Below are positions 4,983 through 33,809 of a stretch of DNA of 41,425 nt, one piece after another. Position numbers and translations under genes: made by a program. The notes under the pieces were generated by a model. It did not search any database. It saw only the letters and a list, made by a program, of their open reading frames with translations, and was not told the DNA's origin. Numbering within the stretch: position 1 is the first letter of the stretch; every line of letters begins with the position of its first letter. The DNA is taken from IMG/VR virus record IMGVR_UViG_3300036851_000391, positions 1 through 41,425 of that record; one strand, 5' to 3'. The stretch is from a virus.

Positions 4983-5173
4983 GACCCAACCCCGCACTGC
5001 ATGCCGAGATCGAGCGCCTTGCGCAACTGAAGGCCCAGCTTCCCACCGTCAAGGAGCTCGCGGAAAAGTACGGCGTGCATGAGGCAAGCGTCCGCCGCCT
5101 CATCTTCGCGGCGGTCAAACGCCACAGCACTGCGCGAATCGCGCATTCCACATCGAGCGAGCTGATGCGATGA
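4979..5173 (+). CDS. Small helix-turn-helix protein
   Basis: 64 residues from ATG 4979, overlapping the stranded nuclease tail as ATGA. LPTVKELAEKYGVHEASVRRLI is a convincing helix-turn-helix (resolvase or sigma-like). The stop overlaps the next start (5170). A small DNA-binding regulator in the rightward operon; target unknown. Confidence 0.65.
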   Translation: MRPNPALHAEIERLAQLKAQLPTVKELAEKYGVHEASVRRLIFAAVKRHSTARIAHSTSSELMR

Positions 5174-5880
5174 TCACAGCGAAGGGGTCCTGCTTGAATC
5201 GTACGCTCTGGCTTCTGTGTCTTGGCTTCGCGCTCGCCATTTTCGGCTCGTGGGTGAATCTTGCGCATGCCGGTGTGGTGAGCTGTTCGGCCGGAACCGC
5301 TGGCGGAGGGCTCTCGAGCTGCACGGGCGTGCAGTCGTGCCTCACGACACTGTCGCCCGAAACCCTGGTGCGCACGCTCTCGGGACCGGCGCATATCTGG
5401 CAGCGCTGGGATGTGATTCCCGCGAACGGCACCGTGCGGCTGTGTCAGCCCGATGGCTGGAACAGCAAGCAGGCATCTGGGGTTATCGTGGCAGCGCCGC
5501 CGCCCGTAGATCCCTCGCCGCCCACGGCTCCCGAAGTGCAGGATTTCAGCGCCCTCTGGTGGGCGCCAGTCACTACGAACACGGACGGCACTCCTGCGAA
5601 GATCACCGGCTATCGGCTCTATCTTGGTACCTCACCGGGGGTCTACGCTGCACCCATTCCGGTGCAGGGGTTTCGCTATTCGCTGGCCCAGCTGGCACCA
5701 GGACGGTATTACGCGGCGGTGACGGCCCAGGATGAGGCGGGACGTGAGAGCGCCAAGACCGCCGAAATCTCATTCGAGGTGAAGCCCGCTCAGACGCCCG
5801 AGCCACCAAAGCAATTCACCTGCTCCACTCCGCTCGTCACCGAGAACAAGACTGTGACGCTCACGTGCACCCTGCAATGA
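5170..5880 (+). CDS. Secreted fibronectin type III protein
   Basis: 236 residues. The N-terminus has a basic start, a hydrophobic core (LWLLCLGFALAIFGSW) and a signal-peptidase I site after LAHA (about residue 34). The mature protein has a Cys-rich region, a Pro-rich linker (PPPVDPSPPTAPEV) and one fibronectin III-like domain (GYRLYLGTSPGVY ... YYAAVTAQDEAGRES, about 115-205), ending in a Cys-containing strand. A periplasmic or surface protein in an early/middle phage operon is unusual. Superinfection exclusion or surface alteration is possible, but this is inference. It is coupled on both sides by overlapping stops and starts. Confidence 0.7.
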   Translation: MITAKGSCLNRTLWLLCLGFALAIFGSWVNLAHAGVVSCSAGTAGGGLSSCTGVQSCLTTLSPETLVRTLSGPAHIWQRWDVIPANGTVRLCQPDGWNSKQASGVIVAAPPPVDPSPPTAPEVQDFSALWWAPVTTNTDGTPAKITGYRLYLGTSPGVYAAPIPVQGFRYSLAQLAPGRYYAAVTAQDEAGRESAKTAEISFEVKPAQTPEPPKQFTCSTPLVTENKTVTLTCTLQ

Positions 5881-28045: not shown

Positions 28046-28174
28046 TCAGAACGAGCCCCTCAGCCGCGCCCACACATCCCGCACCATAAGCGCCGGGATC
28101 ACGATCGCGCAGAACAGGCTCCCGGCCCGGACTTCTCGCCCTCGCGAGCCGTTCGATAGACCGTCGTTTCCCAA
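28046..28174 (-). CDS. Possible small membrane peptide overlapping the next gene
   Basis: A frame from TTG 28174 to TGA 28048-28046 encodes LGNDGLSNGSRGREVRAGSL followed by a hydrophobic FCAIVIPALMV segment and a basic end (42 residues). It overlaps the C-terminus of the gene at 28099 in another frame. Composition is protein-like, but the TTG start and lack of a clear ribosome site keep this tentative. Confidence 0.3.
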   Translation of the reverse strand: MGNDGLSNGSRGREVRAGSLFCAIVIPALMVRDVWARLRGSF

Positions 28175-28332
28175 TGACGCATGCCGATGACGTAGTGCAT
28201 GGGCTCAATCGCCAGCGCCATCTCGTCGCGGTCGTCCTGCTGCGGAACGTTCGTTCCGTGCACAGTCGAGCCGACCATGGCACGCAGGATCACCATTGTG
28301 CCCTTAGGCAAATTCGTTGTTGGATCGATCAT
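28099..28332 (-). CDS. Hypothetical protein, third gene of the Ro operon
   Basis: 77 residues from ATG 28332, ATGA-coupled to the helix-turn-helix gene. It contains MIDPTTNLPKGTMVILRAMV, acidic DDRDEMALAIEPMH and YVIGMRHWETTVYRTA. The end is Ser/Gly-rich where another frame overlaps. No family recognised. Confidence 0.5.
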   Translation of the reverse strand: MIDPTTNLPKGTMVILRAMVGSTVHGTNVPQQDDRDEMALAIEPMHYVIGMRHWETTVYRTAREGEKSGPGACSARS

Positions 28333-28526
28333 GGTCCGCGCCTCGCCTTGACCTTCATCTGAAATAGCTCCCACAACTGGGGACGCATCTTCGCCGTCCC
28401 CAGTTCCCAGTCCTGCCATGTGCGGTACGCGACTCCGATCAATTCGCCGGCTTCTTTTCGGGAAAGCCCAGCCGAGAGACGTTTCCGTTTGATCTCGGCC
28501 GGGGTTGGATTACCCGATGAAGGCAT
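28329..28526 (-). CDS. XRE-type helix-turn-helix regulator behind the Ro gene
   Basis: 65 residues from ATG 28526 (73 if the ATG at 28550 is used, which has AGGG upstream). RKRLSAGLSRKEAGELIGVAYRTWQDWELG is a typical Cro/XRE helix-turn-helix. It overlaps the end of the Ro gene and lies in the same transcript. It could autoregulate the operon through the palindrome in its promoter (30559-30577); this is a hypothesis from co-location. Confidence 0.65.
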   Translation of the reverse strand: MPSSGNPTPAEIKRKRLSAGLSRKEAGELIGVAYRTWQDWELGTAKMRPQLWELFQMKVKARRGP

Positions 28527-30153
28527 TGATGGCTTGCGGGAGCGACGCATCCATCCCTACGAAATTCATGCAACCCGCATCCTTCGGGTCGACCACACTT
28601 GACTCCGTCGCCGTGAAGGCGATGAACCCCAGCTTTAGCGGCCCGATCTCGCGCCGGTACGCCTGCAGCTCTGCTGCAGCATGCGTCGGCCCGGCCCACG
28701 TTTCGTTGTCCGTGTAGACAAGCACAGCGTCAGCCTGGACCTTATTCGCGCGCGCCCAGCGAATGGGGAGCGCGCAATCAGTCCCGCCGAAGTTCATACC
28801 ACGCGTCTTCGCGAGTACGTCATTCAGCGAGTCACGCTTCGTGATGCCAAGGTCGCGGAAGTCCGTCGCGAACCCGAAGGCCCAATACTGCGGCTCGGTT
28901 CGTACCGTGATGAGCGCCATCGCCGCAGCAGCCTCCGCCACGGTGATCGGCGACTCGTTCACGGTCATTCCCATGCTGCCCGAGACATCGATGCCGAGGA
29001 TGAAACGCTTGCCAGTCGGTGCCACGTTATGGAACGACAGATCGAACGCGTAGTCCAGCGCACCTGTTACCTGCGGAACCACCGTCCACGAACCAGATCC
29101 ACGGAAGCCTGATCCCTTCGCGTACGTGCGCGAGGCAAGCAGGACATGCCACGGATGCACGCGCGCCTTACGGATTGCTTCACCATCGGCCAGCTTCTCC
29201 TGCACGAACTTCGCCGCCTGAGAGAACGGCGTTAGCAAGCTACACTTCGACAGATTGCCGAGGTTACGGATCAGCGCCGTGTAGCCGAGGGACGGCAGGA
29301 GCGCTTCCCACACTTCCGCGCTCGACAACAGTTCGGTCGGCACGAACTCACGTTGCAGGCGAGTCTCCGCGATGATCTTCGCCGCCGTCTTTGGGTCCTT
29401 CTCATCACGCACGCGCAACCAGCCGTCCACGAACGGTGCCAGCGTGCGTACACCCTCCCATCCCGTGGCCACCGTCTGGCGTTCGGTCAGTGCCTTGCGC
29501 GCCTTCTGAGCGCGACGTTCCGCGCCGACTTCTGGCTCGCAGATCGCATCAAAGACCCGCTTGGTTGCGGCGTCCTGCGTGACAGGGTGCGTCAGGCGCA
29601 GCACGTCCCGATGGGAAACACCGTTGCGCTGCTGATACTTGATCGCCTGAAACGCGATGTCCTGCGCCGGACGGTCCATGTACCACTTCGAAATCGCCGT
29701 ACGGATACCACGGCCCCAGCCTCCGCCAAGTGCCTGCCGGTACTCCACGAAGGTGAAGAGGTGCGTGCCGATGCGGCACACAGCCGGCAGAGCCGCGAAA
29801 GCCGATTTGCGGGTCGCCTGATCGCCACGCACGGAGGCAAGTGCAAGCGCGAAGATGGCCGGTTCATTCTTCGGCGCCAGTCCCTTGTCGGAAATTTCAG
29901 CCGTCTCGCGCACGACTCGAGCGCCGTCCTGCTTGATGCAGTTCAGCACGACGTCAGCGTTTTCAATCGTGAGTTTCTTTTCGCTCGCGTAGTAGGTGCC
30001 GCCCTGGCTCCCGAGAATCAGGAAGCGCCGCAGACGAGACCAGTCGTCGAGTTCGAACACATAGCCGCCAGCCGCGTTCTGGATCATCGGTTGACCCGGC
30101 AACGGCTGCGACTGGGGAGTCTGGAGGGGAGAGAAGTGCTTCGCGTAGGTCAT
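28510..30153 (-). CDS. rsr: Ro60/Rsr-type RNA-binding protein (TROVE plus von Willebrand A domain)
   Basis: 547 residues with a perfect AAGGAGGT ribosome site. The N-terminal TROVE region (about 10-370) shows the Ro hallmarks: GGYVFELDDWSRLRRFLILG, GGTYYASEKKLTIENADVV, GIRTAISKWYMDRP and a HEAT-like helical ring. The C-terminal von Willebrand A domain has a complete MIDAS: DVSGS (Asp389, Ser391, Ser393), Thr458 in GGTD and Asp482 in YTDNE. Ro proteins form a ring that holds misfolded RNA ends and bind Y RNAs outside the ring; in bacteria they tether PNPase or assist RNA maturation. Length matches bacterial Rsr (about 530). It is the first protein gene after four Y-like RNAs, within one presumed transcript. 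No rtcA or rtcB is present. Confidence 0.95.
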   Translation of the reverse strand: MTYAKHFSPLQTPQSQPLPGQPMIQNAAGGYVFELDDWSRLRRFLILGSQGGTYYASEKKLTIENADVVLNCIKQDGARVVRETAEISDKGLAPKNEPAIFALALASVRGDQATRKSAFAALPAVCRIGTHLFTFVEYRQALGGGWGRGIRTAISKWYMDRPAQDIAFQAIKYQQRNGVSHRDVLRLTHPVTQDAATKRVFDAICEPEVGAERRAQKARKALTERQTVATGWEGVRTLAPFVDGWLRVRDEKDPKTAAKIIAETRLQREFVPTELLSSAEVWEALLPSLGYTALIRNLGNLSKCSLLTPFSQAAKFVQEKLADGEAIRKARVHPWHVLLASRTYAKGSGFRGSGSWTVVPQVTGALDYAFDLSFHNVAPTGKRFILGIDVSGSMGMTVNESPITVAEAAAAMALITVRTEPQYWAFGFATDFRDLGITKRDSLNDVLAKTRGMNFGGTDCALPIRWARANKVQADAVLVYTDNETWAGPTHAAAELQAYRREIGPLKLGFIAFTATESSVVDPKDAGCMNFVGMDASLPQAINAFIG

Positions 30154-30180
30154 AAGGACCTCCTTTGTTAGTGAATCAGA

Positions 30181-30271
30181 TCGGGCGTGGAATTGAAGTC
30201 GGATTAACTCCCTTGCGGGAGTCTTGGAGTCGAACCAAGTTTAACCAGATAACCAACCTCTGCCGGCCCGA
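30181..30271 (-). ncRNA. Y-like RNA 4, with T-arm and GNRA-capped acceptor helix
   Basis: Outer helix TCGGGC (30271-30266) with GCCCGA (30186-30181), internal loop CGGCA, inner helix GAGGTTGG (30260-30253) with CCGACTTC (30202-30195), then TTATC. Inside are a tRNA T-arm, CTTGG-TTCGACT-CCAAG (30239-30223), and directly after it ACTCCC-GCAA-GGGAGT (30222-30207), an acceptor-like stem with a GNRA loop. It lacks a D-arm, so it is a reduced version of RNA 2. It ends about 28 bases before the Ro start codon. Confidence 0.75.
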
Positions 30272-30279
30272 AACTCAAA

Positions 30280-30338
30280 GGGGCGTGGTTGTGAAACAGG
30301 GATGTCGATATGAGTGATAACCCTATCTCTCCGGCCCC
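30280..30338 (-). ncRNA. Y-like RNA 3, minimal form
   Basis: Outer helix GGGGC (30338-30334) with GCCCC (30284-30280), internal loop CGGA on the 5' side and ACAACCAC on the 3' side, inner helix GAGATAGGG (30329-30321) with CCCTGTTTC (30301-30293, two G-T pairs), then a loop starting TTATC. No tRNA-like part. It keeps only the presumed Ro-binding stem, like a stripped Y RNA. Confidence 0.7.
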
Positions 30339-30346
30339 AAAATCAA

Positions 30347-30475
30347 GATGGACGTGGTATGCCAATCGGGGTTTACGCGCTCTAACCAGCTGAGCTACCG
30401 GACCTCACGGCCCGAGGGAGAATCGAACTCCCGACCTCGTCCTCCGAAGGGATAACCGATTAACTCCGGCCCATC
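30347..30475 (-). ncRNA. Y-like RNA 2 with a complete permuted tRNA mimic (YrlA type)
   Basis: Outer helix GATGGGC (30475-30469) with GTCCATC (30353-30347), CGGA loop, inner helix GTTAATCGG (30464-30456) with CCGATTGGC (30369-30361), then TTATC. The inside holds in order: a UUCG-capped arm (30452-30440); a T-arm GGGAG-TTCGATT-CTCCC (30432-30416); an acceptor helix TCGGGCC-GTGA-GGTCCGG (30415-30398) closed by a GNRA loop instead of free ends; TA; and a D-arm GCTC-AGCTGGTTA-GAGC (30395-30379). It is a tRNA cut open at the anticodon arm and closed at the acceptor, as described for bacterial YrlA RNAs. Confidence 0.85.
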
Positions 30476-30482
30476 AATCTGC

Positions 30483-30547
30483 GGCGAACGTGGTGTGCTG
30501 CTTGGGTTATAACATTACAAGTGTTAACCAAACTGCTCCGGCTCGCC
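30483..30547 (-). ncRNA. Y-like RNA 1, at the transcript start
   Basis: Outer helix GGCGAGC (30547-30541) with GTTCGCC (30489-30483), CGGA loop against ACACCAC, inner helix GC-A-GTTTGG with CCAAGC-A-GC (one A-A mismatch), then TTAAC and a small hairpin TAACA-CTTGTAA-TGTTA. The predicted transcription start (about 30550) falls three bases before the outer helix, so the RNA 5' end matches the promoter. Confidence 0.7.
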
Positions 30548-30557
30548 TTTAAATCGA

Positions 30558-30585
30558 AGTATACGGACTCCGTATACGAACGCAA
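30558..30585 (-). promoter_or_regulatory. Promoter of the Y RNA-Ro operon with overlapping palindromic operator
   Basis: On the minus strand TTGCGT (30585-30580) and TATACT (30563-30558) are 16 bases apart. GTATACGGA-C-TCCGTATAC (30559-30577) is a perfect 19-base palindrome covering the spacer and most of the -10. A bound dimer would block RNA polymerase. The regulator is unknown; the XRE protein encoded in the operon is the obvious candidate. The upstream gene ends at 30609, so this promoter makes the operon independent. Confidence 0.7.
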
Positions 30586-30608: not shown

Positions 30609-30818
30609 TTAGTCAGCCACAGCCCCGAAATCCCGGACATCGAGAGGAGCGATTCCTAGCGACTGTGCCTTCTTGAGACCGGCCTCCGTGTAGCGCTCTC
30701 GTCGACCGGGAGGGTATGCATAGCTTGCGATATCCTCCGGCTGTATGCGCTTTTCGGGATCTGATTCCTCAAGATTCATTTCTGCGAACGTGCATGGCCA
30801 GAATGTTTCATTGCTCAT
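30609..30818 (-). CDS. Hypothetical protein, last gene of the leftward early block
   Basis: 69 residues beginning MSNETFWPCTFAEMNLEESD, acidic, with SYAYPPGRRERYTEAGLKKA. ATGA-coupled to the preceding gene. No recognised family. It lies just upstream of the Y RNA promoter. Confidence 0.55.
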   Translation of the reverse strand: MSNETFWPCTFAEMNLEESDPEKRIQPEDIASYAYPPGRRERYTEAGLKKAQSLGIAPLDVRDFGAVAD

Positions 30819-32653: not shown

Positions 32654-32679
32654 TTTGTCAGTGAAATCAGCGTGCTAGA

Positions 32680-32725
32680 TGGTGGGTGCTGACGGGATCG
32701 AACCGCCGACATTCGCCTTGTAAGG
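32680..32725. other. attP core: 3' half of a tRNA-Val(UAC) gene
   Basis: On the minus strand: CCTTACAAGG (anticodon loop CTTACAA, anticodon TAC, at 32724-32718), variable loop, T-arm GGCGG-TTCGATC-CCGTC, then AGCACCC and ACCA. These are tRNA positions about 31-76 of a proteobacterial tRNA-Val. The 5' half (acceptor and D-arm) is absent upstream, so this is not a functional tRNA gene. Next to the integrase, it is the attachment site that would rebuild host tRNA-Val on integration. Confidence 0.85.
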
Positions 32726-32822
32726 GCCAGCGTATTTCGGCGGATCAGTGAGTTACGGCCGCGAGACTGGATCAAAACGGGCCTGATTCGGCCACTCCGG
32801 CGCACAGTTGTCGCACACTGAT

Positions 32823-33809
32823 TTACTTCATCGCGCCGGCCACGCGTTTCGCTGCCTCGGCCGCATTCGATGGTGCGAGGTGCGCATATCGTAAAACCAT
32901 TGCGTAGCTCTTCCACCCGCCGAGCACCATCAACTCTTGCAGTGTTACGCCGCGCTGGACGGCCCACGAGGCGCCCGTGTGTCTGAGGTCGTGCCAGCGT
33001 AGTCCCTCCAGTCCCGCCGCCTTGGCGGCCTTCCTGAAGGCCTTCGTGTTGAAGTTGTCGATCGGCCGACCGTCCCACTGGAACACGCGCTCGCCTTTGG
33101 GGCTGAGCTTCCGGCAGTCCTTCAGGATGCGGATGGACTTTGGCGTAAGCGGAAAGCTGAATGCCGGCCCGGATTTCATCTGTCCGCGCGGCACCCAAGC
33201 ATGGCGTGCTTTCAGATCCACGCGGTCCCACGTGAGCCCGGACTGCGAGCGCATCCGCAGGAGCGTCAGTACCGCGAATCGTGCGGCGAGCTCCAAGTGT
33301 TTCGGTAGGTGCTTGCACAGCCGCTCGAACTGCGGTGGCATGAGGTATCGGGGCTCGGGCTCTACCTCGCCGTACATCGGTATGTGCGGGACGGATTCCA
33401 GATACCGCCAGCGCTTGCAGGCTCGAAGGACCGCACGCACCGTGCGCATCATCCGGTCCACGGTGGAATGGCTCCAGCCCTCTGTCAGCCCGAGCTTGCG
33501 GAGCTCTTCGAGCGTATCCGGATCGGCGACGGCCGAGACCATCTCCTCGCCGATTTCCGGCTCCAGCCAGTCGAGAAATTCCCGATCCCGCTTGCGCTCG
33601 CGTCGAGAGTCGTTCAGCCATCGCTCGCACGCCTCGCGCCAGGAAATTGCACCACGATCTTCGAGCTGGTCCCGGCGCCAGAGTCGTTCCTCGAGGACGT
33701 GGCCGAACTCTTCGGCTTTTTCGCGGTCCGCTGTGCGCGACGAGCGGCGAGTCTTGCGGCCAATTGCGACCCACCAGAAGGGAGAGCCTTTCCGTCGATA
33801 GAGGCGCAT
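32823..33809 (-). CDS. int: Tyrosine-family phage integrase
   Basis: 328 residues. Catalytic residues: Arg in LTLLRMRSQSGLTW (about 185-187), Lys212 in MKSGPAF, His273-x2-Arg276 in WHDLRHTGASW, Trp299 in LGGWKSY and the nucleophile Tyr308 in MVLRYAHLAP. The N-terminal MRLYRRKGSPFWWVAIGRKT is the arm-binding region and residues 55-145 the SAM-like core-binding domain. It integrates the phage at tRNA-Val through attP at 32680-32725, about 100 bases beyond its 3' end. Its 5' 196 bases overlap the excisionase-like gene in another frame. Confidence 0.95.
   Translation of the reverse strand: MRLYRRKGSPFWWVAIGRKTRRSSRTADREKAEEFGHVLEERLWRRDQLEDRGAISWREACERWLNDSRRERKRDREFLDWLEPEIGEEMVSAVADPDTLEELRKLGLTEGWSHSTVDRMMRTVRAVLRACKRWRYLESVPHIPMYGEVEPEPRYLMPPQFERLCKHLPKHLELAARFAVLTLLRMRSQSGLTWDRVDLKARHAWVPRGQMKSGPAFSFPLTPKSIRILKDCRKLSPKGERVFQWDGRPIDNFNTKAFRKAAKAAGLEGLRWHDLRHTGASWAVQRGVTLQELMVLGGWKSYAMVLRYAHLAPSNAAEAAKRVAGAMK

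Follow-up and report, generated by a model that had tools for sequence, protein, structure and literature searches.

The regulatory arrangement closest to the one described here is that of the acrIC7-acrIC6-aca10 operon of Pseudomonas citronellolis, the source of Aca10 (PDB 7XI5; PMC9410881). Aca10 dimers bind, as DNA, the palindrome AATACGCTCA-T-TGAGCGTATT, of 21 bp around a 1-bp centre (minimal 19 bp), and this operator overlies a promoter of the form TTGCAA-N16-TATTCT (PMC9410881). Throughout Aca families 1-10 an inverted repeat is reported to lie in the core promoter, and the cognate protein of each family to act as repressor; aca-like genes occur also without known acr genes (PMC9410906), and neither a TROVE nor a Ro context turned up in that paper. 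A literature search pairing Aca, anti-CRISPR and TROVE returned nothing relevant, and novelty is provisional, most subscription papers lying outside the search.

The literature on the regulation of Ro60 and YrlA pointed to the RtcR system. The rsr-yrlBA-rtcBA operon of Salmonella is under RtcR/sigma54, the activator of the rsr operon being a CARF-domain sigma54 activator that responds to RNA damage (PMC7790460, PMC9879122). Ro genes are also present in actinophages, among them Gordonia phage BearBQ (gp43/gp42) and Mycobacterium phages Sparky and Farewell (gp36/gp37); the actinophage Ro records examined carry no annotation of regulation.

We analysed a 41,425-nt stretch of viral DNA (IMG/VR record IMGVR_UViG_3300036851_000391, positions 1 to 41,425; hereafter the window), which encodes on its minus strand, in this order, a promoter, four Y RNA units, ro60 and a small helix-turn-helix (HTH) gene. 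A 19-bp palindrome on that promoter is very probably the operator for autorepression of the Y RNA-ro60 operon by an Aca10-like protein that the operon itself encodes. This operon and acrIC7-acrIC6-aca10 both have a homologous small HTH repressor gene in last place, as judged by sequence and fold, and the window operator likewise spans 19 bp with a 1-bp centre on a TTG...-N16-TAT..T promoter (TTGCGT-N16-TATACT). The two differ in their remaining genes, which here are Y RNAs and Ro60 rather than anti-CRISPRs, in operator sequence and in specificity residues (Q22R, Q38D, R44A); the Aca10 operator ATACGCTCATTGAGCGTAT is not found in the window, and direct comparison of half-sites gives 4/9 agreement. 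As in bacterial Ro60/YrlA ribonucleoproteins, Ro60 and a YrlA-type Y RNA derive from one locus, but where the Salmonella operon is governed by an activator and sigma54 the window has a putative cis-encoded repressor and an operator on a sigma70-like promoter. With the actinophage loci it shares the order Y RNAs-ro-small HTH and an operator on the array promoter, and it differs from them in HTH family and in operator sequence (CTGTAmNNNNkTACAGT in the actinophages). The operon most likely works like an acr-aca operon but is not one in the strict sense, since it lacks an anti-CRISPR gene and has another operator sequence; similarly the HTH protein is Aca10-like rather than a strict Aca, since the gene upstream of it encodes Ro60 and the operon contains no anti-CRISPR gene.

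Structure of the operon

The features of the operon are collected in Table 1. The Y RNA array reported in an initial annotation, which was made from the letters of the window, was borne out by four foldable units, a YrlA match (RF02553) and a gene with TROVE and Ro60 vWA domains. Units 1, 3 and 4 fold better than their shuffled counterparts (z about -3), and in unit 2 an outer helix of the same type is closed. Against the Rfam YrlA model unit 2 scores 37.9 bits (E 1.1e-6, 30440-30373), short of the gathering score of 69; the unit is encoded beside the Ro60 gene. The HTH gene overlaps the ro stop codon, with its ATG inside the 3' end of ro, and encodes 65-73 aa.

Table 1. Features of the Y RNA-ro60 operon of the window, with one entry from two Mycobacterium phages
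Feature	Position	Strand	Basis
-35 element TTGCGT	30580..30585	-	sequence; 3/6 consensus; ungapped against TTGACT of L002
Operator, perfect 19-bp palindrome GTATACGGA-C-TCCGTATAC	30559..30577	.	sequence; position p 0.004-0.005
-10 element TATACT	30558..30563	-	sequence; 5/6 consensus; spacer 16 nt
Predicted transcription start	30550..30551	-	deduced from -10 spacing; ~3 nt ahead of first Y helix
Y RNA unit 1	30483..30547	-	fold z -3.3
Y RNA unit 2, YrlA type, tRNA-like module, core 30373-30440	30338..30481	-	RF02553 + closed helix
Y RNA unit 3	30276..30340	-	fold z -3.0
Y RNA unit 4	30172..30276	-	fold z -3.1
Ribosome-binding site of ro, strong, AAAGGAGG	30159..30166	-	sequence
ro60/rsr, TROVE + Ro60 vWA domains	28510..30153	-	Pfam PF05731 4e-42, PF25045 4e-48
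Aca10-like HTH repressor (predicted)	28329..28526, possible earlier start 28550	-	phmmer + Foldseek vs 7XI5
Mycobacterium phage Sparky / Farewell	gp37		CTGTACTGCGGTACAG

ARAGORN places a tRNA-Arg(TCG) at 30407-30481, which we regard as a miscall of the YrlA tRNA-like module in light of the RF02553 match; calls of this kind probably lead to misannotated phage records. The HTH gene is followed at 28099-28419 by a short open reading frame with weak matches to phrog_388, a phage nucleotidyltransferase family (E 9e-8), and to RlaP (E 0.014); it seems to be what is left of the beginning of a truncated nucleotidyltransferase linked to RNA repair. Elsewhere in the window, 32660-32830 resembles the 3' end of a tRNA-Thr and adjoins the integrase gene, and may be an attP site.

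The palindrome and its promoter

The initial annotation had described a 19-base perfect palindrome overlapping the -10 element and spacer of a promoter, and it is present exactly as claimed. It is built as 9+1+9 around a single central C and covers both the spacer and the -10 of the array promoter, TATACT being formed by the right arm together with one further base; from -10 to -35 the promoter spans 30558-30585 on the minus strand, and the first RNA helix begins at 30547. That the palindrome does not recur was likewise sustained: allowing up to 3 mismatches, the window contains it only once (0 further copies expected), and none of 2.9 million viral contigs has an exact match.

When the window was shuffled 60 times, 29 of the shuffles contained a perfect palindrome with arms of at least 9 and a centre of at most 1, at a rate of about 0.6 per window, and the mere presence of one in 41 kb is therefore unremarkable. 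What is unusual is its placement: the probability of a palindrome within 60 nt ahead of the array is about 0.001 from the per-window shuffle rate, and shuffling of the promoter region itself gives p=0.004-0.005. The promoter scan did not list the operator-overlapping promoter, because its -35 agrees with only 3/6 consensus positions, and listed instead CTGACT-17-TAGAAT just upstream (30616-30588, minus strand; score 9/12). Since the -35 is weak and the consensus scan prefers the upstream promoter, assignment of the array promoter is probable mainly through comparison with the nearest relative.

This relative, an 89-kb viral contig (L002), is the one close relative found with the Aca10-like-ro arrangement. 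Its Ro is 71% identical to that of the window, its Y array, upstream of ro, is longer, and its HTH protein is 56% identical, the gene again overlapping the ro stop and standing last in the operon. The L002 promoter, TTGACT-16/17-TACCTT, aligns with that of the window without gaps from TTG to CTTCG (TTGCGTTCGTATACGGAGTCCGTATACTTCG / TTGACTGCCGCACAGTTTCTGTGTACCTTCG), and an equivalent of the promoter at 30616-30588 was not seen there. In the same place L002 has a weaker dyad, CACAG-TTT-CTGTG, with 5-bp arms and p about 0.5. Relative to the window dyad two changes are mirrored on both arms (G-C to A-T and T-A to C-G), and by direct reading the right half-site TCTGTGTAC shares 7/9 bases with TCCGTATAC. 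The recognition helix of the L002 XRE protein is nearly identical to that of the window protein, despite the short dyad.

Relationship of the HTH protein to Aca10

The XRE-type gene previously placed at 28329-28526 was confirmed, with its ATG inside ro or a start at 28550. When its product was compared by phmmer with all PDB chains the best match was Aca10 (7XI5; E 2.7e-13, 28/58 identical), the next match having E 0.03, and a profile of six sequences recovered 7XI5 at E 1.1e-22 with Aca2 chains next. An AlphaFold model of the protein (pLDDT 87) returned 7XI5 as its top Foldseek match (E 1.9e-5, TM 0.84/0.95, rmsd 0.7 A, 48% identity). A match to the NCBIfam VC1465 Xer-activation family was rejected, since it falls far short of the family cut-off and the match to Aca10 is the stronger of the two.

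The DNA-contact residues R34 and Q37 of Aca10 are retained, and the three specificity residues named above are changed, among them R44, the most critical contact of Aca10. At the dimer interface E52 and K57 are retained and G49 is replaced by Gln. The altered contacts would fit a different operator sequence, and the same specificity cannot be assumed.

Palindromes upstream of other operons with a last gene of the same XRE subfamily

Palindromes were also sought upstream of other operons that end in a member of the same XRE subfamily. At a Klebsiella plasmid locus (L021) the dyad recovered, AATACGCTCATTGAGCGTATT, is the published Aca10 operator base for base; this recovery, made before the published site was known to us, is a positive control of the search. 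The gene-XRE pair has a dyad upstream with p of 0.002-0.006 in L010, L021, L225, L230 and L231, and no significant palindrome was found upstream in L226, L011 and L002; for the loci of this subfamily, the window excluded, the combined p is 5e-8. Among 14 further XRE relatives from the viral scan, many of them more distant HTH proteins, no operator evidence was found, one having a borderline A/T-rich repeat and the others lacking a perfect palindrome of 9-bp arms.

Two of these loci carry neighbouring genes of separate interest. Behind the exact Aca10 operator of L021 (940-1692) a 148-aa gene, a candidate anti-defence gene, precedes the Aca10-like gene. At the Comamonas plasmid locus L231 (795-1698) an Aca10-like gene comes after a gene annotated as encoding an antirestriction protein, and the upstream dyad CATTGTCCGTATAGTGGATACGAACAATG has GTCCGTATA in common with the window operator.

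Other HTH families beside ro

Genes of at least two further HTH families adjoin ro in the same kind of arrangement, one in actinophages and one in a third group; comparison of these two families with Aca proteins covered the models that have PDB chains. Gordonia and Mycobacterium phages have a different small HTH gene directly after ro and the CTGTAmNNNNkTACAGT operator before the first Y RNA, its right arm forming the -10 (TACAGT) and its inner pair alternating between A-T and C-G (permutation p 0.02). The pattern TGTAMNNNNKTACAGT is matched in 9 of 12 actinophage records, once in eight and at two overlapping places in the ninth, and its reversed form, used as a control, gave zero matches in the 12. 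The three non-matching records include L194, with an imperfect dyad, and the M. abscessus prophage type, which carries GCTATACCGCGGTATAGC in place of the actinophage operator.

A third HTH group, found in the proteobacterial MAGs L103, L088 and L076, has TAGTGCANNNTGCACTA ahead of the array, in exactly one copy in each of the three genomes (2.8-5.4 Mb); past the operator of L076 no Y unit of standard form was recognised. Genomes scanned with an alignment of two Ro sequences gave no match, and a broader alignment succeeded. When viral contigs were scanned blind with the TAGTGCANNNTGCACTA operator, 86 stretches were returned, most of which appear to be chance matches; one, L293, is a ro operon with a distant Ro, a YrlA match and a third-group HTH gene, and its operator lies just ahead of the first Y unit.

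Palindromes in the 60 nt ahead of the first Y unit were also compared between ro loci, which are interrelated, so that the p values serve as guides. At p<=0.01 a palindrome is present at 6/21 loci with an HTH gene and at 0/83 without a recognised one (Fisher 3.6e-5, MWU 1.9e-4). An earlier test with a looser unit pattern was not significant (MWU p 0.16); the second version used a stricter pattern, first units placed by hand at three loci (the window, L002 and L076), and the added third HTH group, two members of which came to notice through their dyads. With that group dropped and near-duplicates merged the result is 3/16 against 0/83 (p 0.004), with that group counted among the controls p is 0.03, and leaving out both the window and that group gives a combined p of 0.0015. 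We give more weight to the single-copy results and to L293 than to these statistics.

Alternative explanations

The palindrome might be an operator for the main phage repressor or for Cro (1259-1945, 1694-1888), in which case the operon would follow the lysogeny switch. Among the genes of the window there is indeed an HTH gene with weak matches to phage CI/Cro models, and a clear Cro-like HTH gene as well. CI-type operators are usually present in several copies, however, and several would be expected near the immunity region, whereas the site is single in the window even at up to 3 mismatches. The actinophage counterpart is almost always single-copy as well and stands at the Y array, and the adjoining Aca10-like gene accounts for the site without CI. 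We consider this explanation very unlikely, and prophage-state control, which had been entertained in the initial annotation, is disfavoured, as far as it would act through CI, by an operator that is single-copy and specific to the Y RNA-ro operon. Use of the palindrome by a host regulator, such as a TetR- or GntR-like protein, is more improbable still: in those families 19-bp dyads built on a GTATAC core occur commonly, which counts in its favour, but the operator changes along with the regulator family beside ro, as fits cis-encoded regulators, and the site is without an exact match in viral contigs.

It is also very unlikely that the palindrome acts as RNA, either as a hairpin for termination or processing at the end of the co-oriented gene upstream, which ends at 30609, or as a 5' hairpin of a transcript from the 30616-30588 promoter. 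The scan lists it as terminator-like with 8 pairs, its RNA folds at -9.8 kcal/mol, and the upstream promoter scores 9/12. Yet the U-tract (UUCGAUUU) is poor and the fold z is no stronger than -1.9; the right arm itself forms the -10 (TACAGT) in actinophages, so transcription from that promoter would leave the dyad out; the upstream promoter was not seen in L002; and Aca10 binds comparable sites as DNA (PMC9410881).

Proposed mechanism and implications

Negative autoregulation by the XRE protein, offered as plausible in the initial annotation, is supported by the Aca10 relationship in sequence and fold, by a published operator of the same geometry, by palindromes at the promoters of unrelated operons with the same XRE subfamily, and by the further HTH families next to ro, which have operators of their own at the array promoter. 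We infer binding, repression, the start site and pulse kinetics as follows. The Aca10-like product of the last gene would dimerise and occupy the 19-bp dyad, covering spacer and -10, so that RNA polymerase could not load. A phage genome entering a repressor-free cell would then make Y RNAs and Ro60 rapidly, and as repressor built up, and also in a lysogen, the operon would be throttled.

More tentatively, Y RNA/Ro60 operons of phages and other mobile DNA might share the burst-then-shut-off logic of anti-CRISPR operons, Aca-like repressors having been recruited independently from several HTH families; we consider this less likely than not. If true, Ro60-Y RNA would be an early anti-defence or RNA-repair function against host RNA-cleaving immunity, and Aca-like operators would be a handle for finding such operons. 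A regulatory design shared with anti-CRISPR operons gives a lead on the role of phage Ro60 and Y RNA, namely early expression followed by tight repression. Aca10-type repressors apparently control a noncoding-RNA operon, and operator motifs can retrieve Y RNA-ro operons from raw DNA, as with L293.

Further variants of the ro neighbourhood were observed. In L141 a small ribbon-helix-helix-looking protein (5100-5309) follows ro, and about 390 nt before ro an inverted repeat, TGATTCTTT...AAAGAATCA, lies on the array promoter, possibly a fourth type of regulator. In the viral contigs L127, L136, L140, L142 and L149 a cold-shock domain gene lies directly 3' of ro.
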